A stretch of 50,280 nt of DNA from Nocardioidaceae bacterium (GTDB taxonomy: Bacteria > Actinomycetota > Actinomycetes > Propionibacteriales > Nocardioidaceae): assembly GCA_025934895.1 (NCBI GenBank), contig JAICWH010000006.1, positions 1-50,280 on the forward strand. The letters run 5' to 3'. Below, piece by piece: positions 4,776 to 23,588 of this stretch (its first letter is position 1; every line of letters begins with the position of its first letter). The notes beneath the pieces were generated by a model, which searched no databases, had not been told where the DNA came from, and worked only from the letters and a program-made list of their open reading frames with translations. The position numbers and the translations under genes were made by a program.

Positions 4776-4967
4776 TCAGGCGGATGCCCGCCGGGCGGCT
4801 CCGCGCTGTCGGGGGACGGTCAGGTCCGGATCGTTCTGATAGGCGAACATCGACTCGAGCGTGGTCATCGAGGGGTCGCTGCGCAGGGAACCCGTTGGGG
4901 TGGTGGGGACCGGGAGTGCCTCCCGTCGTGCCACCAGCAGCTCCCTGAGCCGTCGTACGAGCGCCAT
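4776..4967 (-). CDS. Small protein of unknown function, 63 residues
   Basis: The ATG at 4967 is preceded by GGAGGTGACG, an excellent ribosome site. Longer in-frame starts up to 5084 are rejected because they would ignore it. The product begins MALVRRLRELLVARREALP, an amphipathic basic helix, followed by a Pro/Thr/Ser-rich stretch and a basic tail. I do not recognise a family. It stands alone between the repeat region and the kai remnant, which is transcribed the other way. Confidence 0.5.
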   Translation of the reverse strand: MALVRRLRELLVARREALPVPTTPTGSLRSDPSMTTLESMFAYQNDPDLTVPRQRGAARRASA

Positions 4968-5068
4968 CGTCACCTCCAATGTCGGTGCACAGGCTAGATC
5001 CCCGATCGGCGGACGAGAGGTAGCGACACTGCTACATTCGACAACCAGGTGACCCGGCGCCGGCTCCG

Positions 5069-5239
5069 GTGAGAGAAGTGACAACGCGGCAGATCGGCTC
5101 GCTCATCGACACCTGGATGATCGGCCGATCTCGAGGAGGGTGACGGGATCCGGCACCGGGTACTCGCAGGACGTCCGCGACTTCGCGCTCAGAGCTGCGG
5201 GTCACCGACGTCCTCCGCGATGGCGCGGCGAGGAGATGA
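5069..5239 (+). pseudogene. Remnant of the C-terminus of a kaiC-like gene
   Basis: No open frame spans this stretch, but three pieces in two frames match the order of the KaiC C-terminus. QIGSLIDTWMI (about 5090-5122) resembles the SSLxDTWI motif. GTGYSQDVRDFALRAAG (frame of 5140) resembles the RGMxHSxQxREF motif. LRVTDVLRDGAARR ends in a TGA at 5237. That TGA overlaps the ATG of the following kaiB remnant (ATGA), as in genuine kaiC-kaiB operons. A stop codon at about 5141 and at least two frame changes show that it is dead. The bulk of kaiC, including both ATPase domains, is absent upstream. The assignment rests on motif recall and gene order, without an alignment. Confidence 0.62.
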
Positions 5240-5534
5240 CCGAGGCGCAGGCAGTGTCCGAGGCAGAGACCTGGTACATGCGGCTGTACGTCGCCAGGAC
5301 CTCGCCCACATCGCTGACCACGTTCGCGGGATCTCGAACGGCTCTGTGACCAGCACCTTGACCACCCCTACGAGGACGAGACAGTCGACCCGCTCCAGCA
5401 CCCGCGGGGCGCACGCGGTGACGGCGATACCCACGCTCGTACGTCGTCCGGCGGCGCCGATACGCAACATCATCGGGGACCTCTCGGACACCGACCGGGT
5501 CCTCGTCGGGCTCCAGCCGAAGGGAGCGAGATGA
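5236..5534 (+). pseudogene. Frameshifted kaiB-like pseudogene
   Basis: Pieces of a KaiB fold appear in order in three frames. ETWYMRLYVARTSPTS is in the frame of 5236, HIADHVRGIS in the frame of 5307, and RLCDQHLDHPYEDETVDPLQHP in the frame of 5339. Then AIPTLVRRPAAPIRNIIGDLSDTDRVLVGL is again in the frame of 5307, ending with TGA at 5532. The last piece closely parallels the AAPTLIKERPLPKRMLVGDLSDTARVLLAL segment of the intact gene next door. At least three frame changes are required. The terminal TGA overlaps the start of the next gene (ATGATG), so the operon architecture outlived the reading frame. Confidence 0.8.
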
Positions 5535-5884
5535 TGGACGAGACCACCACGCGGTCCGAGGAGCAGCCCCCCGCCGACCAGGAGGCGACCTACGCCCTGA
5601 CCCTGTTCGTGACCGGAGCCTCCGAACGGTCCGGCCGGGCCATTGACAACGTGCACGCCCTGTGCGAGGAGCATCTGGCGGGTCGCTACACGCTCGACGT
5701 CGTGGACGTGCTGCGTGACCCGTCCCTGATGTCGGCCTACGACGTGGTGGCCGCGCCTACCCTGATCAAGGAGCGGCCGTTGCCCAAGCGCATGCTCGTC
5801 GGGGACCTCTCCGACACGGCCAGGGTGCTGCTGGCCCTGGACGTCCGCGGGTCCGTTCCCGCCACCGGGGTGGGCAGGGCCTGA
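5531..5884 (+). CDS. KaiB-like thioredoxin-fold protein
   Basis: A 117-residue protein with an acidic 20-residue leader and then a KaiB domain: YALTLFVTGASERSGRAI, a CEEHL helix, YTLDVVDV, and the conserved APTLIKERPLPKRMLVGDLSD followed by a helix. The domain has the usual KaiB length of about 90 residues. In cyanobacteria KaiB binds KaiC and SasA/CikA. Outside them, KaiB homologues pair with KaiC-like ATPases and sensor kinases in poorly understood stress circuits. Here the kaiC and first kaiB upstream are ruined. The gene overlaps its downstream neighbour (TGATG), which suggests translational coupling. GGGAGCGAG precedes the start. Confidence 0.85.
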   Translation: MMDETTTRSEEQPPADQEATYALTLFVTGASERSGRAIDNVHALCEEHLAGRYTLDVVDVLRDPSLMSAYDVVAAPTLIKERPLPKRMLVGDLSDTARVLLALDVRGSVPATGVGRA

Positions 5885-7704
5885 TGTCGGCTACGAGCCG
5901 GGTGCTGGAGGTCGAAGCGCTCAGGGCCAGGCTCGCGGACGCCGAGGAGACACTGCGGGCCATCCGCCACGGTGAGGTGGACGCGCTCGTGGTCGGAGCG
6001 GTGCTGGGTCAGGAGCGACTGTTCACCCTGGACAGCGCCGACCGGACCTACCGCAACTTCGTCGAAGGCATGTCCGACGGCGCTGCCACCGTGTCCGCGA
6101 CCGGCGTCGTGCTCTACGCCAACCAGTCCCTCGCCGACCTGGTCGCCTCCACCTGCCAGCGCATCGTCGGGCAGCCGGTGTCGAACCTGGTGGCCGAGTC
6201 CAGCCGCGCCCGGCTGAGCAGCCTGGTGGCTGCCGAGGTGCCCGTGGGCTCCGTCGAGGCCGTCCTGAAGACCACCGAGGGCCATCTGGTGCCGGTGCTG
6301 CTCGGCTCCTCGAGCCTGACCGTCGAGAGCGACCACATCACCTGCCTGACCTTCACCGACCTCACGAGCGAGCGGGAGGCCGAGGCGGCGCTGGCCCACA
6401 GTGCCCAGCACGATGCACTGACCGGGCTTCCGAACCGCACCCTGCTCAGCGACCGGATCCAGCACGCTCTCGAACGCAGGGCCAAGGGTCCGGGTCTGCT
6501 GGCGCTCCTGTTCTGTGACGTGGACGGCTTCAAGAACATCAATGACGCGCACGGACACCAGGTCGGGGACAGCGTGCTGCAGACCGTGGCGTCGCGGCTG
6601 ACGGCGGCGGTGCGGCCCGAGGACACGGTTGCCCGGATCGGCGGCGACGAGTTCGTGGTGCTGTGCGAGGAGCTCGCCGACATCGACGCCGCGTCGATGG
6701 TCGCCACCAGGCTCGGCAGCGCCGTCGCGATGCCGATCTCGACGCGCATCGGCATGGTCGAGGCCACGATGAGCGTCGGCGTCGCGGTGGCTACCCACGG
6801 TGAGCGCGCCAGCACGGACACCCTCCTGCGCGACGCCGACGAGGCGATGTACAAGGCCAAGCGCCAGGGCCCCAACGTCATCGAGCTCTTCGACGAGGAC
6901 CTGCGGACGGTGGCGGCCTCCCGGCTGCAGCTGATGACCGAGCTGAGGGGGGCCACCGGCAACCGCGAGCTCAGGCTGGTGTACCAGCCCGTGCTGGATC
7001 TCGGCGCCGAGCGCATCGTGGGCGTCGAGGCGCTGTTGCGCTGGAAGAACCCCACGCGCGGCCTGGTCCAGCCCGACGCGTTCATCCCGTTCGCGGAGCG
7101 CAGCGGGCTGATCGTCCAGATCGGGGCCTGGGTGGTGCACGAGGCCTGCCGCCAGGGCGCGGCATGGCTCGCGGCCGACGGGGACGGCCGGCCGTTCACG
7201 ATGTCGGTCAACGTCTCGGGCCGACAGCTCACGCCCGCCGCGAGGTTCCTCGACACGGTCCGGGCGGCCCTCGCCGAGTCGGGCCTGATGCCGAGCGCAC
7301 TGATCCTCGAGGTGACCGAGAGCGCGCTGATGGAGGACGCCGAGGCCGCTCTGCGTGTCGTCAACGAGCTGAAGGCGCTGGGTGTGCGCATCGCGATCGA
7401 CGACTTCGGGACCGGCTACTCCTCCCTGCTGTACCTCAAGCGATTCCCGGTCGACCTTCTCAAGATCGACCGGTCCTTCGTCGCGGGGCTCGGTGGGAAC
7501 CGGGAGGACAGTGCCATCGTCCGCAGTGTGATCGACCTCGCCCAGGCCTTCGGCATCTCCTCGGTCGCCGAGGGGATCGAGACCGCCGAGCAGCTCGCCG
7601 ACCTTCGCAGCCTGGGCTGTCACTACGGCCAGGGCTTCTTGTGGAGCCCCGGCCGGTCCGCTGCCGAGCTCGGCGACCTGCTGGACGCCGCGCAGGCCGG
7701 TTGA
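5884..7704 (+). CDS. PAS-GGDEF-EAL protein (cyclic di-GMP turnover)
   Basis: A 606-residue soluble protein. An N-terminal helical segment (EALRARLADAEETLRAIRHGEVDALVV) of the kind found on Kai-linked sensor proteins is followed by a PAS domain at about 55-170. The GGDEF domain has an intact GGDEF at 253-257, and the EAL domain has EALLRW at 382 and DDFGTGYSS at 506. Both catalytic signatures are intact, so it could make and degrade cyclic di-GMP, though one activity usually dominates. There are no membrane segments. Its start overlaps the KaiB-like stop codon, so the KaiB-like protein is a likely partner or input. It ends the kai-derived operon. Confidence 0.93.
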   Translation: MSATSRVLEVEALRARLADAEETLRAIRHGEVDALVVGAVLGQERLFTLDSADRTYRNFVEGMSDGAATVSATGVVLYANQSLADLVASTCQRIVGQPVSNLVAESSRARLSSLVAAEVPVGSVEAVLKTTEGHLVPVLLGSSSLTVESDHITCLTFTDLTSEREAEAALAHSAQHDALTGLPNRTLLSDRIQHALERRAKGPGLLALLFCDVDGFKNINDAHGHQVGDSVLQTVASRLTAAVRPEDTVARIGGDEFVVLCEELADIDAASMVATRLGSAVAMPISTRIGMVEATMSVGVAVATHGERASTDTLLRDADEAMYKAKRQGPNVIELFDEDLRTVAASRLQLMTELRGATGNRELRLVYQPVLDLGAERIVGVEALLRWKNPTRGLVQPDAFIPFAERSGLIVQIGAWVVHEACRQGAAWLAADGDGRPFTMSVNVSGRQLTPAARFLDTVRAALAESGLMPSALILEVTESALMEDAEAALRVVNELKALGVRIAIDDFGTGYSSLLYLKRFPVDLLKIDRSFVAGLGGNREDSAIVRSVIDLAQAFGISSVAEGIETAEQLADLRSLGCHYGQGFLWSPGRSAAELGDLLDAAQAG

Positions 7705-16545: not shown

Positions 16546-16953
16546 GGAGGGAACACCACCCTTCCTCCTGCCGCGACACAGGCATCGTCCGCCGGCAGAC
16601 GCGATCGATACTGCTCCCGCTGCCCATGCCTGTCCAGGCAGCGGGACGTCTTCTGCTCGCGGATGAGCCCGACCACCTAACAGATGTTCAGGGCCAGCGT
16701 CACCGCCTGACTCGTCGCGGCGAGCGCACTAGCCCGACGGGGCCATTGCCGAGCCGGGCCCGGCGGTGCCAGCGTGGCAGCGGCACCTCCGGGGGCCGTG
16801 TATCACAGCACTACCTCACCTGTCCTTTGTTCTGGACGCTTTTCCGCCGACGCGACCAGCGAGTGGAAGGCTTCCCGCCACCCTCGGCGGACGCGGCTGG
16901 CACCAGCCATCCGCGGACGGCTGCTCACCCGTAGCTCTGGAAGGAGCTGGACC
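16546..16953. other. Intergenic region between divergent genes
   Basis: About 400 bases between the membrane protein and the M4 protease, which are transcribed away from each other. It must hold both promoters. I see no gene, hairpin or convincing operator in it. An open frame reaches from the protease back to 16774 but lacks a ribosome site there. Confidence 0.5.
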
Positions 16954-18045
16954 ATGATCTCCGCACCTCGCCCGACGCCACACCCCGCCTGCTCGATCGC
17001 CCCACCCGACCTGCTCTCCCGCCTTGCCTCCCAGGGCACTGCCGAACAGCGGGACGCGGCCCTCTCCGCGCTGGCGGCGTCGGCGTCGATGCGCACCCAG
17101 CGCTCGATGCTGAGCCAGGTGCGGCGTCGGCTGGGCAATGAGGTCGCGAACCAGCTGGCCGGACTGGATGTCACCCCGGAACGCCGGCAGACCATCTACG
17201 ACAACCAGCGCCAAGGCCGGTCATTCCTCCCGGGTGTCCGGGTCCGCGGCGAGGACGACCCGCCGACCGCCGACGCCGACGTCAACGGCGCCTACGACGG
17301 GAGTGCAGCGACCTACGACTTCTACCGTGACGTGTTCAACCGGGACTCCCTCGACGGACAGGGGATGGAGCTCGTCTCGTCGGTGCACTACGGCGTCGAC
17401 TTCGACAACGCGTTCTGGAACGGCGCGCAGATGGTCTACGGCGACGGCAGCGGACGCGTGTTCGTGAAGGGTGCGCTGGCGCAGTCCATCGACGTGGTCG
17501 GGCACGAGCTCACCCACGGCGTCACGTCGTTCACCGCCAACCTCGCCTACAGCAAGCAGTCGGGTGCGCTCAACGAGAGCTTCTCCGACGTGTTCGGCTC
17601 GCTCGTCAAGCAGCGTCACCTCAACCAGACGGCCGACCAGGCGGACTGGCTGATCGGCGCCGGGACCCTGGTCCCCGCCCTCGGCAAGGCGCTGCGGTCG
17701 ATGAGCGCGCCTGGCACGGCGTACGACGGCGACCGTCAGCCGGACCACATGGACGGCTACGTCGACCTGCCCGACGACAACGACCCCCGCAACGACAACG
17801 GCGGCGTGCACATCAACTCCGGGATCCCCAACAAGGCCTTCTACCTCGTGGCCTCCGCCCTGGGTGGTCAGGCGTGGGGCACGGCAGGAGCGATCTGGTT
17901 CCACACCCTCACCGAGCGGCTGCAGTCCAAGGCGCAGTTCGTGGATGCCGCGGAGCAGACCATGCAGGTGGCCAAGGAGATGTTCGGGGACACCGCGCAG
18001 TCGTCGGTGGCGAGCGCCTGGCAGCAGGTGGGCGTCATTTCGTGA
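16954..18045 (+). CDS. Protealysin-like M4 metalloprotease precursor
   Basis: A 363-residue protein starting at an ATG preceded by AAGGAG. There is no signal peptide. The short N-terminal propeptide contains PPDLLSRLA, matching the PPxxL motif of protealysin-like M4 precursors rather than the long thermolysin propeptide. The catalytic domain has VGHELTHGV (zinc ligands H184 and H188, catalytic E185) and NESFSD (third ligand E208). The downstream GGVHINSGIPNKAFY contains the region of the catalytic His. It is a zinc endopeptidase that should self-process its propeptide. Location may be cytoplasmic or non-classically secreted, as proposed for protealysin. The stop codon overlaps the start of its probable inhibitor. 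Confidence 0.92.
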   Translation: MISAPRPTPHPACSIAPPDLLSRLASQGTAEQRDAALSALAASASMRTQRSMLSQVRRRLGNEVANQLAGLDVTPERRQTIYDNQRQGRSFLPGVRVRGEDDPPTADADVNGAYDGSAATYDFYRDVFNRDSLDGQGMELVSSVHYGVDFDNAFWNGAQMVYGDGSGRVFVKGALAQSIDVVGHELTHGVTSFTANLAYSKQSGALNESFSDVFGSLVKQRHLNQTADQADWLIGAGTLVPALGKALRSMSAPGTAYDGDRQPDHMDGYVDLPDDNDPRNDNGGVHINSGIPNKAFYLVASALGGQAWGTAGAIWFHTLTERLQSKAQFVDAAEQTMQVAKEMFGDTAQSSVASAWQQVGVIS

Positions 18046-18350
18046 AGGTGTCCGTCGTCCGCGGCGGGGGGCTGGCAGGGATCACGACGCGGACCGAGGT
18101 GAGCCGCAGTGCCCTGCCCACCGCCGCCGCCGGGATCCTGGATCGCCTGGTCGAGGAGGCCGGCGTGCGTGAGCCGCCGGCCCCCTCCAGTCCGTCGGGC
18201 CCCGACCAGATGCTCTACGAGGTGGAGATCTCCGACGACGACGGGACGGTGCGCGTCCGGTTCACTGACGCCGACCTCCCCGACGGGGTCCGCAAGCTCA
18301 TCGAGTGGGTCGACTCACGGGCGGAGAAGATCCACCGACTCGACGTCTAG
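18042..18350 (+). CDS. Emfourin-like inhibitor of M4 metalloprotease
   Basis: A 102-residue protein whose GTG overlaps the protease stop codon (GTGA), so the two are translationally coupled. It begins KVSVVRGGGLAGITTRTEV and ends YEVEISDDDGTVRVRFTDADLPDGVRKLIEWV, the pattern of the emfourin family. The founding member is encoded beside protealysin in Serratia and inhibits it tightly. Gene order and size fit, so a protease-inhibitor pair is the natural reading; inhibition itself is inferred. There is no signal peptide, consistent with keeping the enzyme silent inside the cell. Confidence 0.82.
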   Translation: MKVSVVRGGGLAGITTRTEVSRSALPTAAAGILDRLVEEAGVREPPAPSSPSGPDQMLYEVEISDDDGTVRVRFTDADLPDGVRKLIEWVDSRAEKIHRLDV

Positions 18351-18383: not shown

Positions 18384-20642
18384 TTGCTGTACAACAAGCA
18401 CATGGTCGACGCGCGCCCACGACCACGGGCCCGGCTGGCGTCTGGCGCTTACCAGGCGTTGGTGACGGTCTACCTCGCGGGACTCGTCGGCTGGCTGGTG
18501 CTCGGGGTCGTCCCGTCGCTCGCGGAGGCCGTTGGGCCGTGGCACCGAGCCCTGGTGTCCGCCGGTGCCGGGCACGGCCCGTTCGCGTCGTACGCCCGAC
18601 GGGTCACCGACTCCGCGATGATGATGCCGGCCCCGGCCTGGGTCGCCCTGGCCTACCTCTTCAGCCTGCTGAACCTGGCCCTGGGCGTCCTGCTGATGCT
18701 GAGACGGCCGAACGACCTGGTGCCGAGGCTGCTCGCTCTGGCGTTCATGGGCACGGCTGCGACGTTCAACTCACCCAGCCACGCGGTCTTCCACGTGCTC
18801 GGTGAGCCGCCCGTGATCAAGGGCTTCCACTTCGCGTTCCACGTCGTCTCGGGCAGCGCCTACCTCCTGGCGGTGGTGCTCTTCCCGCACGGGCGGCTTG
18901 CGCTGGGCTGGGGGTCGGGGCCGGTGGTGCGCCGCGTGTTCGTCGGGGGCCTCACCGCCGTCGTCGCGCTCGTCTGCTGGCGAAGCAGCTTCATCGCGCA
19001 TCCGCCGTTCTTCGTGGTGTTCTTCGGGGTGCTGATCTCTCTGGTCGGGATCGCCGCGCAGTCCGTGCACCTGCGCGAGCCCGATGCCGACGTGCGCAGC
19101 TCCGAGCAGGCGCGGCTGCTGCGGGCAGCACTGCTGCCTGCCTTCGGGGCCGCGCTCGTCTGGATGGGCGGCCATGCCATGGCCGTCCTCGGATGGGACG
19201 GAGGATCGGGCCTGCGGGTCGCGGCGGGGATCGACCAGGTGTTCCCGGCCGTCTTCGCCGTCGTACCGGTCGTGCTGTTCGTGGCCATCGTGCGGAACCG
19301 GCTCTGGGATATCGACCTGGTCGCCAGCCGCGCGCTCCTGATGGCGAGCCTGCTCAGCTTCCTCACCCTGCTCTACGTCGCAGTGGTGGCCTGCACCGGG
19401 CTGCTGCTCGGCGACCGCGGATGGGCCGCGCTGGCGCCGTTGGTCGTCGTCGCGTGCGTTGCCGAACCGGTCCGCGAGCGCTGTGAGGCGGTCTGCAACC
19501 GGGTCGTCTTCGGTCAGCGGATGTCTCCGAGGGACGCGGTCCGGTCGCTGGTGGACCGCTTCTCAGGGATCGGCGACGTGGACGAGCTCACCGAGCTGAC
19601 GCGGGTGGTGGTGGCGAGCACGCGCGCCACCCGAGCGGAGATCTGGCTGGCGGCTCCGGACGAGCTGGTCCTGCTGGCGCGGCATCCGGTGGACGCGTCC
19701 GCACCCGCTCGCCGACAGCTGTCGGCGTTGACCGTCGACGCATGCCGGGAGACCCTGCACCCGGCTCAGTCGTGGCCGGTGCTGCACGAAGGGGTCCTGC
19801 TCGCGGTGATCGCGGTGTCGACCCCGCGGGGGACATCCCTGGGTCGCCAGGAGCACCGACTGCTCAGCGACCTGTCGCACCACGCCGGTCTCCTGGTCCG
19901 CAACGCCCAGCTCACGGTCGACCTCGAGCGTGAGCTCGAGGTCGTCCTGGCCCGGGCCGCGGAGCTCGAGACGTCGCGCCAGGCCGTGGTGGACGCCCAG
20001 GACCGGCAGCGCCGACGGCTCGAGCGGGACGTCCACGACGGGGCGCAGCAGCAGCTCGTGGCGCTCCTGATCATGCTGCGTGGCCGCGTGCGTCGGCTGC
20101 GCTCCGATCCCCGGACCCCCATGGACGTCACGGACCTGCGCTCGTTGCTCGAGGAAGCGGCCGGGACGCTGTCGCGACTGGCACGCGGCGGCGTTCCCGC
20201 GGTCCTCGTGGACGAGGGACTGACGAGCGCCCTCGAGCAGGCCGGGGCCGGTATCCGCCGGCTGGGCCCCGAGGTGGAGCTGCGCTCGAGCGGGCCCTGG
20301 CGCGGCAGCGTCGAGGTCGACGCGGCTGTGTACTTCTGCTGCCTCGAGGCGTTGCAGAACGCCGTGAAGCACGCCGGTGCGACTCACATCGAGGTCCTCC
20401 TCGAGCCGCTCGAGGACTGCCTCAGGTTCACTGTCCGCGACGACGGCCGCGGCTTCGACGCCGGTGGCGCCGCATCGGGCTCCGGGCTGGGCAACCTCGA
20501 GGCACGGCTGGCTCCCCTCGGCGGCAAGGTGAGTGTCTCGTCTCGTCCTGGCAGCGGTACGACGGTCCGCGGCGAGCTGCCTGCGCCGCGACCGAGCGGT
20601 CCGCACACCGCACCCGCACCGTTGACGAGTGTGGTGACATGA
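18384..20642 (+). CDS. Membrane sensor histidine kinase (NarL/HisKA_3 type)
   Basis: A 752-residue protein. About ten hydrophobic segments fill residues 15-345. A GAF-like domain follows (about 385-510), then a coiled coil, the HisKA_3 dimerisation helix RRRLERDVHDGAQQQLV with phospho-acceptor His, and a complete ATPase domain (N box EALQNAVKHAG, G1 DDGRGF, G2 GSGLGNLEARL). It should sense a membrane or intracellular cue and phosphorylate the LuxR-type regulator two genes down. The TTG at 18384 has GAGGGG upstream; an ATG at 18402 is the alternative. It overlaps the next gene by ATGA. Confidence 0.9.
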   Translation: MLYNKHMVDARPRPRARLASGAYQALVTVYLAGLVGWLVLGVVPSLAEAVGPWHRALVSAGAGHGPFASYARRVTDSAMMMPAPAWVALAYLFSLLNLALGVLLMLRRPNDLVPRLLALAFMGTAATFNSPSHAVFHVLGEPPVIKGFHFAFHVVSGSAYLLAVVLFPHGRLALGWGSGPVVRRVFVGGLTAVVALVCWRSSFIAHPPFFVVFFGVLISLVGIAAQSVHLREPDADVRSSEQARLLRAALLPAFGAALVWMGGHAMAVLGWDGGSGLRVAAGIDQVFPAVFAVVPVVLFVAIVRNRLWDIDLVASRALLMASLLSFLTLLYVAVVACTGLLLGDRGWAALAPLVVVACVAEPVRERCEAVCNRVVFGQRMSPRDAVRSLVDRFSGIGDVDELTELTRVVVASTRATRAEIWLAAPDELVLLARHPVDASAPARRQLSALTVDACRETLHPAQSWPVLHEGVLLAVIAVSTPRGTSLGRQEHRLLSDLSHHAGLLVRNAQLTVDLERELEVVLARAAELETSRQAVVDAQDRQRRRLERDVHDGAQQQLVALLIMLRGRVRRLRSDPRTPMDVTDLRSLLEEAAGTLSRLARGGVPAVLVDEGLTSALEQAGAGIRRLGPEVELRSSGPWRGSVEVDAAVYFCCLEALQNAVKHAGATHIEVLLEPLEDCLRFTVRDDGRGFDAGGAASGSGLGNLEARLAPLGGKVSVSSRPGSGTTVRGELPAPRPSGPHTAPAPLTSVVT

Positions 20643-21856
20643 GGTCCCGGCGCGTCGACCTGGTGTGGGTGGCGGTGGTCACCGCGGTGCGCGCGGCCTT
20701 CGTCATGGTCGTCGGGGGCGCCGCGCTGGTCGTCGCCGGCTCGATGAGCTCGCCGACGGGGCGTGCCGGGTTGTGGCTCGGGGCGACGGTCCTGGTGGCC
20801 GGCTGCGTGATGGCGTCCCGGTCGACGGTGGAACGGTTGGCAGATCGCGTCGCCTACGGTCCGGACGGCGACCCCTACTCCGCCCTGTCAGCGTTCGTGC
20901 AGCGGGTCTCGGACACCGTCGCCGTCGACGAGGTGCTGCCGCGGGTCGCGCAGACAGTCACCCAGGCGACGCACACCTCGGTCGGTGAGGTGCGGCTGTG
21001 GCTCTCCGACGGAGCCGAGCTGCGGGAGGCCTGGCCTCCGGTGCAGCCTCCCGAGGCGGCCGCCATGCTCAGCGTGCCCCTGCAGCGACGCGGCGAGCAG
21101 GTCGGCATCCTGGGTGTGGGACCGGACACGGTGGCGATGACGGAGAACACCAGGGCCGTGCTCGACCGGTTGGCCGGTACCGCGGGGCTGGCGCTGGCGA
21201 ACGTCCGGCTCACCTACGACCTGCGGCACCGGATCGCCGAGTCGCGTGAGCTGGCGGAGCGCCTGCAACGCTCGCGACAGCGCCTGCTCGATGCGGCGGC
21301 GGGACAGGCGGCGGAGTTCTCGCACCTCGTCGACGCTCGCGTCCAGCGTCGGCTGTCGGCCGCCGACCAGGCGCTCTCGCACGTCGAGCAGGGTGACCCG
21401 GCCGCGCTCGAGGACACGGTCGCCGAGGTGACCGCCGCGCTCGAGGAGCTCCGCGACATCGCGGCGGGGATCTTCCCGCCCACCTTGGCCGACAACGGTC
21501 TGGGGGTGGCTCTCGAGACGTTCGCGCTCCGCTACGACGGACGGGTCCGGGTCTCGCACCGTGGCCTCGAGCGTCGCGTGGCGGCTTCCCTCGAGACGGC
21601 TGCGTACTTCTGCTGCGTTCGCCTCGTCGAGGACTCTGTCGACACCGGGAGTATGGCCCGCGTGGACGTCCACCGGGAGGTCGATCCCCAGCCTGCGCTG
21701 ACGATCCGGGTCAGCTGCGACAACCCTCCGACGCCGGCGACGGTGCAGCTCGTCCAGGACCGGGTGGAGGCGACGCACGGCGTGCTCGCCCGTCGTACGA
21801 CCGCAGGCGGAGCGGAGCACCAGGTGCTCATCGGCTGGACCCTGGGCGGGTCATGA
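20639..21856 (+). CDS. Degenerate histidine-kinase homologue (no phospho-acceptor His)
   Basis: A 405-residue protein. Two membrane segments (about 10-60) are followed by a GAF-like domain (about 75-190), a coiled coil and a HisKA_3-like helix. Where kinases have LHDGAQQRL it reads LVDARVQRRL, so the phospho-acceptor His is Val. The C-terminal domain keeps the fold (AAYFCCVRLVEDSV) but has lost the Asn of the N box and has no DxGxG or GLGL box. It therefore cannot be an ordinary kinase. Sitting between an active kinase and two receivers in one overlapping operon, it may be a regulatory subunit. Codon use is normal and the frame intact, so it is not a pseudogene. Confidence 0.82.
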   Translation: MRSRRVDLVWVAVVTAVRAAFVMVVGGAALVVAGSMSSPTGRAGLWLGATVLVAGCVMASRSTVERLADRVAYGPDGDPYSALSAFVQRVSDTVAVDEVLPRVAQTVTQATHTSVGEVRLWLSDGAELREAWPPVQPPEAAAMLSVPLQRRGEQVGILGVGPDTVAMTENTRAVLDRLAGTAGLALANVRLTYDLRHRIAESRELAERLQRSRQRLLDAAAGQAAEFSHLVDARVQRRLSAADQALSHVEQGDPAALEDTVAEVTAALEELRDIAAGIFPPTLADNGLGVALETFALRYDGRVRVSHRGLERRVAASLETAAYFCCVRLVEDSVDTGSMARVDVHREVDPQPALTIRVSCDNPPTPATVQLVQDRVEATHGVLARRTTAGGAEHQVLIGWTLGGS

Positions 21857-22521
21857 AGACCAGACTGGTGCTCGGCGAGGACAACGCATTGCTGCGTGAG
21901 GGGATGCGTGGCCTGCTGTCGGCCACCGACGAGGTCGAGGTGGTCGCGGCATGTTCCGACCTGGACAGCATCCTGGAGAGCATCGACACGCTGCGGCCCG
22001 ACGTCGTTCTGACCGACATCCGAATGCCGCCGACCGGGACCGACGAAGGGGTCCAGGTCGCGCGGCACTGCCGGTCCCGCCACCCGTCCACGGGTGTGAT
22101 CCTGCTCAGCCAGTACGTCGACCCGGCGTATGTGCGGTCCCTTCTGGAGAGCGGCTCGGCCGGCAGGGGCTACCTGCTCAAGGAGCGCGTCTCGGATGTG
22201 GAGGAGCTGATCAGGGCAGTGACGGCCGTGGCTGCAGGCGGGTCGGTGGTCGACCCCCAGGTGATCGAGCACCTGGTGAGGACCGGAGTGAGCCGCGGCA
22301 ACGCGAACGTCGCCCGGCTGAGCCCGCGAGAGCTCGAGGTGCTGGCGGAGATGTCGAGGGGTCGCAACAACACCGCCATCGCCGCCTCGCTGTTCATCGG
22401 TCAGCGGGCGGTCGAGAAGCACATCAACTCGATCTTCGCCAAGCTCGGTGTCGGGGTCGGTGACGAGTCCCACCCGCGGGTGCGCGCGGTTCTGCTGTAC
22501 CTCTCGGGCAGCGTGTCGTGA
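21853..22521 (+). CDS. NarL/LuxR-family response regulator
   Basis: A 222-residue protein. The receiver domain has acidic residues at GEDNALL, the phospho-acceptor Asp in VVLTDIRMPP, and the conserved Lys in YLLKERV. The C-terminal LuxR-type helix-turn-helix reads LSPRELEVLAEMSRGRNNTAIAASLFIGQRAVEKHINSI. It is the obvious DNA-binding output of the upstream kinase. It overlaps both neighbours by four bases, so all four genes of this operon are probably cotranslated. Its targets cannot be inferred. Confidence 0.93.
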   Translation: MKTRLVLGEDNALLREGMRGLLSATDEVEVVAACSDLDSILESIDTLRPDVVLTDIRMPPTGTDEGVQVARHCRSRHPSTGVILLSQYVDPAYVRSLLESGSAGRGYLLKERVSDVEELIRAVTAVAAGGSVVDPQVIEHLVRTGVSRGNANVARLSPRELEVLAEMSRGRNNTAIAASLFIGQRAVEKHINSIFAKLGVGVGDESHPRVRAVLLYLSGSVS

Positions 22522-22946
22522 GCGGTCCTGCTGCGTCCGAGCGCCCGACCGGCATGCCGGTGGGAGCGACGCCTCGCAGCGTCCTGCTGGTCGATGACCA
22601 CCGTGGGTTCCGGGTGGTGGTCCGGTCGTTGCTGGACGCGGAGCCGGGTTTCGAGGTGGTGGGGGAGGCGCGGGACGGGGAGGAGGCCGTGGAGCTGGCG
22701 GGTCGGCTGGGCCCGGACCTGGTCGTGATGGACGTGCGGCTGCCGGGGATCACGGGGATGGAGGCGACCCGACGGATCGTGGGTCGGGACCCGTCGGTGG
22801 TGGTGGTGCTGGTCTCCACGGTGCGACGCGAGGATCTGCCTGCGGACCTGTTGGGGTGTGGGGCGGTGGGGTTCGTGCAGAAGGAGGCGCTGGATCCGTC
22901 GGCGTTGGCGGAGCTGGTCGCGGGGGCTGAGGGTGGGGTGGGCTGA
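22518..22946 (+). CDS. Stand-alone receiver-domain protein
   Basis: A 142-residue protein starting at a GTG that overlaps the previous stop codon (GTGA). It is a complete receiver (VLLVDDHRGF, phospho-acceptor in LVVMDVRLPGITG, Lys in GFVQKEAL) with a 20-residue leader and no output domain. Single-domain receivers usually act in phosphorelays, as phosphate sinks, or by binding partners. Here it most likely competes with or bridges the LuxR-type regulator and the two kinase-like proteins. Confidence 0.88.
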   Translation: MSGPAASERPTGMPVGATPRSVLLVDDHRGFRVVVRSLLDAEPGFEVVGEARDGEEAVELAGRLGPDLVVMDVRLPGITGMEATRRIVGRDPSVVVVLVSTVRREDLPADLLGCGAVGFVQKEALDPSALAELVAGAEGGVG

Positions 22947-23009: not shown

Positions 23010-23588
23010 TCAGCCGAAGTTGACGCGGGCGGCGAGGGGGGTGGTGTTGACGTACTGCTGGCGGGTGACGGGGTGGCGGCTGGTGCCGGTGCCGGTCTGG
23101 GTGGTGGGGAGCAGGCTGGTGGAGAGCTGGGCGCTGGTGAAGGCGCCGGAGGTGATGGTGCCGGCCAGGGTGTAGGGCTGGTTGGTGGCGGTGCGGCGGA
23201 GGGTGACGGTGGCGTTGGAGGGGTTGAGCCCGGAGCCGGTGGGCCAGTTGATGGTGAGGGTGCCGCTCTGGGTGGTGGCGGTGAGGCTGGAGGTGCCGGT
23301 CAGGATGGCGGTGACGGTGCCGGTGCCGGCCTGGGGTCCGTTGTAGCCCGAGCAGCCGGTCAGGGCGCCGGTGAGCACGGCCTGCTCGGTGCGGGTCTTG
23401 GTGGTGAGCAGGCCGGGGGTCCAGCTGATCGATCCGCTCAGGCCGGTGCAGGACTCGACCGAGCTGTACCCGTCGGGGTGGATGCCGGTGGCGTGGGCGG
23501 TGCCGGCGCCGGCCAGTGAGGCGGCCAGCATGGTGCCGCTGGTCAGGGTGAGCAGGGCTGCGCGGCCGAGGTGCGTGCTGGTGAGCAT
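23010..23588 (-). CDS. Secreted protein of unknown function
   Basis: A 192-residue product. The ATG at 23588 has GAAAGGAA 9 bases upstream; longer open frame to 24059 is rejected because it would bury the signal peptide. Residues 1-33 form a signal peptide ending in AGTAHA. The mature protein is rich in Thr, Ser and Gly with alternating beta-strand patterns (GSISWTPGLLTTKTRTEQAVLTGALTGC, SGTLTINWPTGSGLNP) and two Cys that could pair. It resembles many actinobacterial exported beta-sandwich proteins, but I recognise no named family. Confidence 0.72.
   Translation of the reverse strand: MLTSTHLGRAALLTLTSGTMLAASLAGAGTAHATGIHPDGYSSVESCTGLSGSISWTPGLLTTKTRTEQAVLTGALTGCSGYNGPQAGTGTVTAILTGTSSLTATTQSGTLTINWPTGSGLNPSNATVTLRRTATNQPYTLAGTITSGAFTSAQLSTSLLPTTQTGTGTSRHPVTRQQYVNTTPLAARVNFG

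Follow-up and report, generated by a model that had tools for sequence, protein, structure and literature searches.

The window, that is, the whole 50,280-nucleotide stretch of Nocardioidaceae DNA analysed here, carries a four-gene operon in which an active sensor histidine kinase (K1) is coupled to a kinase homologue that has lost its catalytic residues (K2), followed by two receiver proteins (R1 and R2). Since this pair recurs together with both receivers in about 30 loci of Actinomycetota, K2 probably serves as a functional regulatory subunit, which speaks against a gene in decay. The window is a single contig, and the named relatives nearest to its genome are MAGs of Nocardioidaceae. The genes of the operon and the convergent gene next to it are as follows:

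K1, 18384..20642, plus strand: active sensor histidine kinase, 752 aa, with 7–9 predicted transmembrane segments (TM), GAF, HisKA_3 DHp, and HATPase_c
K2, 20639..21856, plus strand: pseudokinase, 405 aa, with 1–2 predicted TM, GAF, a His-less DHp, and a degenerate CA lacking both the N box and the G1 box
R1, 21853..22521, plus strand: response regulator, 222 aa, with a receiver and a GerE/LuxR HTH (Pfam)
R2, 22518..22946, plus strand: lone receiver, 142 aa (Pfam)
Secreted-looking protein, 23010..23588, minus strand: 192 aa, signal-peptide-like N-terminus, convergent with the operon, without a Pfam match

The operon and its two kinases

Adjacent genes overlap by 4 bp at each junction (ATGA for K1/K2, ATGA for K2/R1, and GTGA for R1/R2), as described in the first-pass annotation of this DNA. 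The start codon of K1 is TTG, with an alternative ATG at 18402; the TTG start is backed by Y3, N4, and M7, which are invariant across four orthologues. Scanning of the operon for promoters and terminators revealed nothing exceeding chance. A mobile or phage origin of the operon was considered and rejected, with no phage match and only weak plasmid matches (24.8–33.3%). Upstream of the operon, at positions 16774–18350 of the plus strand, the window contains the gene of an M4 (thermolysin-like) protease and, after it, that of an emfourin-family protein, ending 34 bp 5' of K1; no M4 protease/emfourin genes were found upstream of the remaining operons of the same layout (type A, see below).

A collection scan identified 26 loci with related gene sets, and the addition of whole-genome loci allowed us to compare 30 K2 and 29 K1 sequences. 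K1 of the window matches the Pfam models HATPase_c (E-value 5e-12) and HisKA_3 (7e-5), its H551, N659, DxGxG, and GxG motifs are intact, and the H, N, G1, and G2 motifs are kept in all 29 K1 sequences, in agreement with its initial designation as the active kinase of the pair. Together with R1, it makes up a HisKA_3 kinase and receiver-LuxR regulator pair of the NarL/FixJ two-component type, as judged from Pfam matches.

For K2, no match to the Pfam HisKA_3 and HATPase_c models was obtained, and the GAF_2 match (8e-6) fell just below the curated cut-off. The GAF/HisKA_3/ATPase layout initially ascribed to K2 was recovered in two other ways: profile comparison aligned it to K1 across GAF, DHp, and CA, and the AlphaFold model displayed a predicted DHp hairpin and a CA-like fold (pLDDT 83). 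Comparison of the model with DHp-CA structures matched it to the VraS CA (Z 15.6), to DosS (14.7), and to DesK (13.6), which points to a DHp hairpin combined with a Bergerat-like CA fold.

The first-pass annotation had reported Val in place of the phospho-acceptor His in K2. The His is indeed absent; however, the helices of K1 and K2 align without a gap, and therefore the residue opposite His551 of K1 is Asp (SHLV-D-AR), while the Val is located one position away and pairs with Val550. The N box position reads EDSVDT and the G1 box is missing, so the ATP-binding boxes are lost, as was originally noted. The same loss is seen throughout the set: the His was found in none of the 30 K2 but in all 29 K1, both G1 glycines are missing in 30/30 K2, and the N box is lost, with an isolated Asn in 2/30. 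The Gln of the HDxxxQ motif, linked to phosphatase activity in the HisKA_3 kinase family, is present in every K1 (29/29) and in no K2 (0/30).

The composition and codon usage of the K2 gene are healthy (GC3 0.90), as was recorded at first reading for its frame and codons, and for the window type the dN/dS ratios, which are rough estimates at such divergence, were in the range of 0.31–0.71 for K2 and 0.32–0.49 for K1. These values suggest purifying selection on K2 close to the level of that on K1. Judging by the predicted structure, K2 appears to have retained the fold of a histidine kinase; its catalytic chemistry has been lost.

The receiver residues Asp10, Asp55, and Lys110 of R1 are invariant in 39/39 sequences. 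R2 also has an intact receiver site (D/D, Asp72, Ser100, and Lys122), with Asp72, Ser100, and Lys122 invariant in all 39 sequences, and it matches the Pfam receiver model, as expected from the earlier description of the fourth gene as a lone receiver. With this intact site and no output domain, R2 has what a phosphate sink requires, and it may act as such a sink or as a feedback arm.

Gene order, sensor placement, and neighbouring genes

Two relatives from the same genus (G006/L058 and G002/L059), whose K2 proteins share 65% and 54% identity, respectively, with that of the window, carry all four genes in the order seen here, as does a member of another family (G300, L114). Among all loci, three gene orders were distinguished. 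Type A (4 loci) has K1-K2-R1-R2 on a single strand. In type B (10 loci), R1 is located upstream on the same strand, followed by K1-K2, with a convergent R2 in nine loci; R2 was not found in the tenth (L043). In type C (12 loci), R2 and then R1 come after K1-K2 but lie on the opposite strand. Four truncated or deviant loci (L073, L075, L076, and L119) fall outside these types. The K2 start lies at −4 (10 loci) or +1 (19 loci) relative to the K1 stop, so that the two genes are coupled in 29/29 cases. Since the pairing of K1 and K2 remains tight while R1 and R2 shuffle their place and strand, the two kinases could form a stoichiometric complex.

According to the first-pass annotation, the operon looks like a regulatory or phosphate-sink arrangement and not simple decay, and an intact His and N box in relatives would point to recent loss in this strain only. 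Decay in one strain is ruled out, as all of the K2 relatives, spread across several families, lack the His. This absence, the invariable coupling of K1 and K2, and the co-occurrence of the four genes in three different orders argue for the regulatory half of the proposal. The phosphate-sink half agrees with the intact receiver site of R2, but R2 is not confined to loci with a pseudokinase (see below).

The types also differ in the placement of the sensor. Hydropathy analysis predicted 7–9 TM on K1 and 1–2 on K2 in type A, while in types B and C 6–10 TM were predicted on K2 and 1–3 on K1. The long TM sensors are homologous to one another and to the sensors of the kinase arrays described below (hhalign 96–100%). 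In the window type the full sensor belongs to K1, and K2 is therefore dispensable for input there, a point against the model favoured below. In types B and C, signal input and catalysis appear to reside on separate proteins, and K1 and K2 would therefore need to communicate; this split, as predicted from the sequences, is the strongest argument for K1-K2 communication.

Neighbouring genes offer candidates for the output of R1. An MMPL exporter is encoded near R1 in 9 of 10 type B loci (two of these exporters are only 40% alike), and in 11 of 12 type C loci and in L119 a MacB-like FtsX permease with an ATPase is encoded divergently from K1. The kind of exporter tracks the gene-order type, MMPL with B and MacB-like ABC with C (e.g., L060:1727–3937; L063:1380–3923). 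The 192-aa secreted-looking protein is encoded beside all four type A operons, convergently in three and divergently in L114, and at most one further weak match was detected among 117 genomes of the order. In addition, another contig of the window's own genome (L171; G000:C2, contig end at 11086) ends in 268 bp that duplicate the promoter and the first 26 codons of the 192-aa gene with 96.6% identity, which represents either an additional copy of the gene or variation between strains. The exporters and the 192-aa protein are natural candidates for R1 targets, and the secreted protein could alternatively be a signal partner. These neighbours suggest a role of the system in export or envelope stress.

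Kinase arrays and the origin of the pseudokinase

Searching 396 Actinomycetota genomes with a profile revealed tandem arrays in other classes of the phylum, in which two to nine HisKA_3 kinases are accompanied by a regulator resembling R1 and by the lone receiver R2. The longest, L159:1–17774, contains nine HisKA_3 kinases arranged in tandem with the same orientation, after which comes a convergent lone receiver; in one of these kinases (4882–6972) Arg replaces the His. Array members lacking the His have at this position Arg (L147, L151, and L159), Leu (L156), Glu (L146), or Gly (L157), and their N and G boxes are largely kept. The second kinase of L161 (6371–9274) presents the reverse of L147, L151, and L159: the His is kept (LIHEGVE), and the N and G boxes are lost. 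Arrays L150 and L153–L155 contain R2, and no pseudokinase was seen in them. R2 is thus not tied to the pseudokinase, since it is likewise found with arrays whose kinases are all active. Two receiver proteins with a C-terminal adenylate/guanylate cyclase domain (L151:15336–16613 and L154:1662–3002) are encoded beside kinase arrays.

The window's own genome also carries a paralogous set of receiver, kinase, and LuxR regulator in which there is just one kinase, an active one (L053:1043–4040, G000:C118). Within the same family, L044 (G032:C107) has two similar intact kinases in tandem; this pair possibly gives a picture of the state preceding the death of one copy.

On the combined phylogenetic tree, five array pseudokinases cluster with K2 (SH-aLRT 96). 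The full-core tree joined the window-type and other K2 proteins (99/97), while a tree of the GAF region by itself gave no clear grouping; long branches weaken both results. A duplication confined to the lineage of the window was rejected with the full core (AU p 0.013) but not with the GAF region by itself (p 0.26). A single clade of all His-less proteins was not rejected (p 0.84) and was a better tree that the free search had missed, again with long branches. The most fitting view of the window operon is that of a reduced and rearranged relative of the kinase arrays. More tentatively, it could be proposed that the pair is a split receptor kinase, in which an active kinase and an obligate pseudokinase share sensing and catalysis and the long TM sensor is movable between them, and that it descends by reduction from an ancient multi-kinase array of Actinomycetota, with as many as nine tandem kinases serving a single LuxR regulator and a single lone receiver, the dead kinases acting as regulatory subunits.

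Proposed mode of action of K2 and comparison with known systems

Taking into account the gene anatomy, the selection on K2, and the precedents of DivL, RocA, and ChrS/HrrS, we favour a model, with somewhat better than even confidence, in which K2 is a conserved subunit without catalytic function: joined with K1 in a mixed complex, it would set the balance between the kinase and phosphatase activities of K1 toward R1. A further argument is that DHp helix 2 is about as conserved in K2 as in K1, with relaxed H box, N box, and CA. K1 and K2 would be translated as a coupled pair and assemble in the membrane into a mixed sensor complex, in which the two proteins contact each other via the DHp helices and perhaps also via GAF and TM regions. 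K1 alone would be able to autophosphorylate and dephosphorylate, and K2 would pass or gate the signal, thereby setting the balance of the two activities. Phosphate would then be transferred from K1 to R1, the DNA-binding output, which probably controls an adjacent gene, namely, that of the secreted protein here and those of the MMPL- or MacB-type exporters in relatives. R2 may compete for phosphate or feed back onto the kinase complex. Alternatively to a mixed complex, K1 could form a homodimer, with K2 acting separately.

The main rival to this allosteric model, although rather unlikely, is a wiring similar to that of DivL, in which K2 would mainly read the phosphorylation state of R2: once R2~P has docked on its His-less DHp, K2 would alter K1, making R2 a feedback input and not a sink. 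The parts list equals that of CckA-DivL-DivK (active kinase, pseudokinase, and single-domain receiver), R2 adjoins the kinases in 29 of 30 loci and is convergent with the 3' end of K2 in types B and C, and DHp helix 2 is equally conserved in K2 and K1 (0.98 vs 1.14 bits). However, K2 is variable in helix 1 (1.48 vs 0.40 bits), which contributes to the usual docking surface. Moreover, this variant is weakened by the occurrence of R2 beside the pseudokinase-free arrays and the single active kinase of L053, which indicates that R2 did not arise as the partner of K2.

The combination of a preserved DHp fold with missing catalytic residues would also suit a role of K2 as a decoy or scaffold, which would buffer the concentration of R1 or R2 by non-catalytic binding and make no contact with K1, but this is improbable, as it leaves unexplained the strict translational coupling of K1 and K2, the sensor swap, and the conserved long TM sensor on the type B and C pseudokinases. 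Still less probable is a continuing part of K2 in phosphotransfer, with the CA of K1 phosphorylating a K2 residue or the Asp acting as a phosphomimic. Asp replaces the His in 5/30 K2 sequences, among them all four window-type ones, and the retention of the His without N and G boxes in L161 makes trans-phosphorylation of a subunit with a dead CA conceivable there; however, no single chemistry is conserved at this position, since 15 of the 30 K2 have Ala there, 8 have Ser, 5 have Asp, and the other two have Thr or Gly. The least plausible possibility, to which we attach very little weight, is that K2 is a K1 duplicate being lost: it evolves slightly faster than K1 (54 vs 60% identity to G002), and its H box, N box, and CA columns are relaxed, but it is consistently His-less in several families, with intact frames, signs of purifying selection, and constant pairing, and a lineage-private duplication was rejected on the full core, although not on GAF alone.

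Among known systems, the best reading, based on mode of action and a shared kinase fold, is that K2 works by analogy with DivL, RetS, or RocA. DivL needs no kinase activity and binds and reads phosphorylated DivK (PMC4211667), and in the DivL-DivK-CckA system of Caulobacter, as may be the case here, a His-less pseudokinase, an active kinase, and a single-domain receiver set one output regulator (PMC4211667, PMC9430884). DivL differs in its PAS sensors and in Tyr at the His position, where the window K2 has Asp and most relatives have Ala or Ser, while K2 is of the GAF/HisKA_3 type with a CA lacking the N and G boxes. The divL and cckA genes are not known to share an operon, unlike the coupled genes of K1 and K2.

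RocA is not known to have a paired receiver and belongs to a kinase family different from that of K2. It resembles K2 as a multi-TM pseudokinase acting on an active membrane kinase of Streptococcus, CovS, which it binds, and it works without its His (PMC7028121); however, the dispensable His is still at the site in RocA (PMC7028121), whereas K2 has none. In the RetS-GacS system of Pseudomonas, one kinase-like protein modulates another via DHp, and the fold of the K2 model resembles chain B in the structure of this complex (7n0e; Z 12.3, rmsd 7.1). RetS, by contrast, is a hybrid kinase that contains receiver domains, and its gene lies apart from gacS. An actinobacterial likeness is ChrS-HrrS of Corynebacterium, in which a catalytically null kinase steers phosphorylation by its paralogue: truncated ChrS acts via HrrS, and the native proteins heterodimerise (PMC9491836). 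That pseudokinase is a laboratory-evolved truncation with the His present, whereas K2 appears to be an ancient conserved subunit. The HisKA_3 kinases DesK, VraS, and DosS share the predicted DHp and CA fold of K2 but are nucleotide-binding and have the catalytic motifs that K2 lacks. Nothing specific on tandem or paired kinases like K1-K2 in Actinobacteria was found in the literature searched, the coverage of which was incomplete.

Pseudo-histidine kinases are known from only a few cases, such as DivL, RetS, and RocA. The loci described here add about 30 natural pairs of active and dead kinases with a swapped sensor, along with intermediates in which the His is lost and the ATP site kept, the ATP site is lost and the His kept, or both are lost, and this family makes testable both the control of a live kinase by a dead subunit and the existence of natural mixed histidine kinase complexes.
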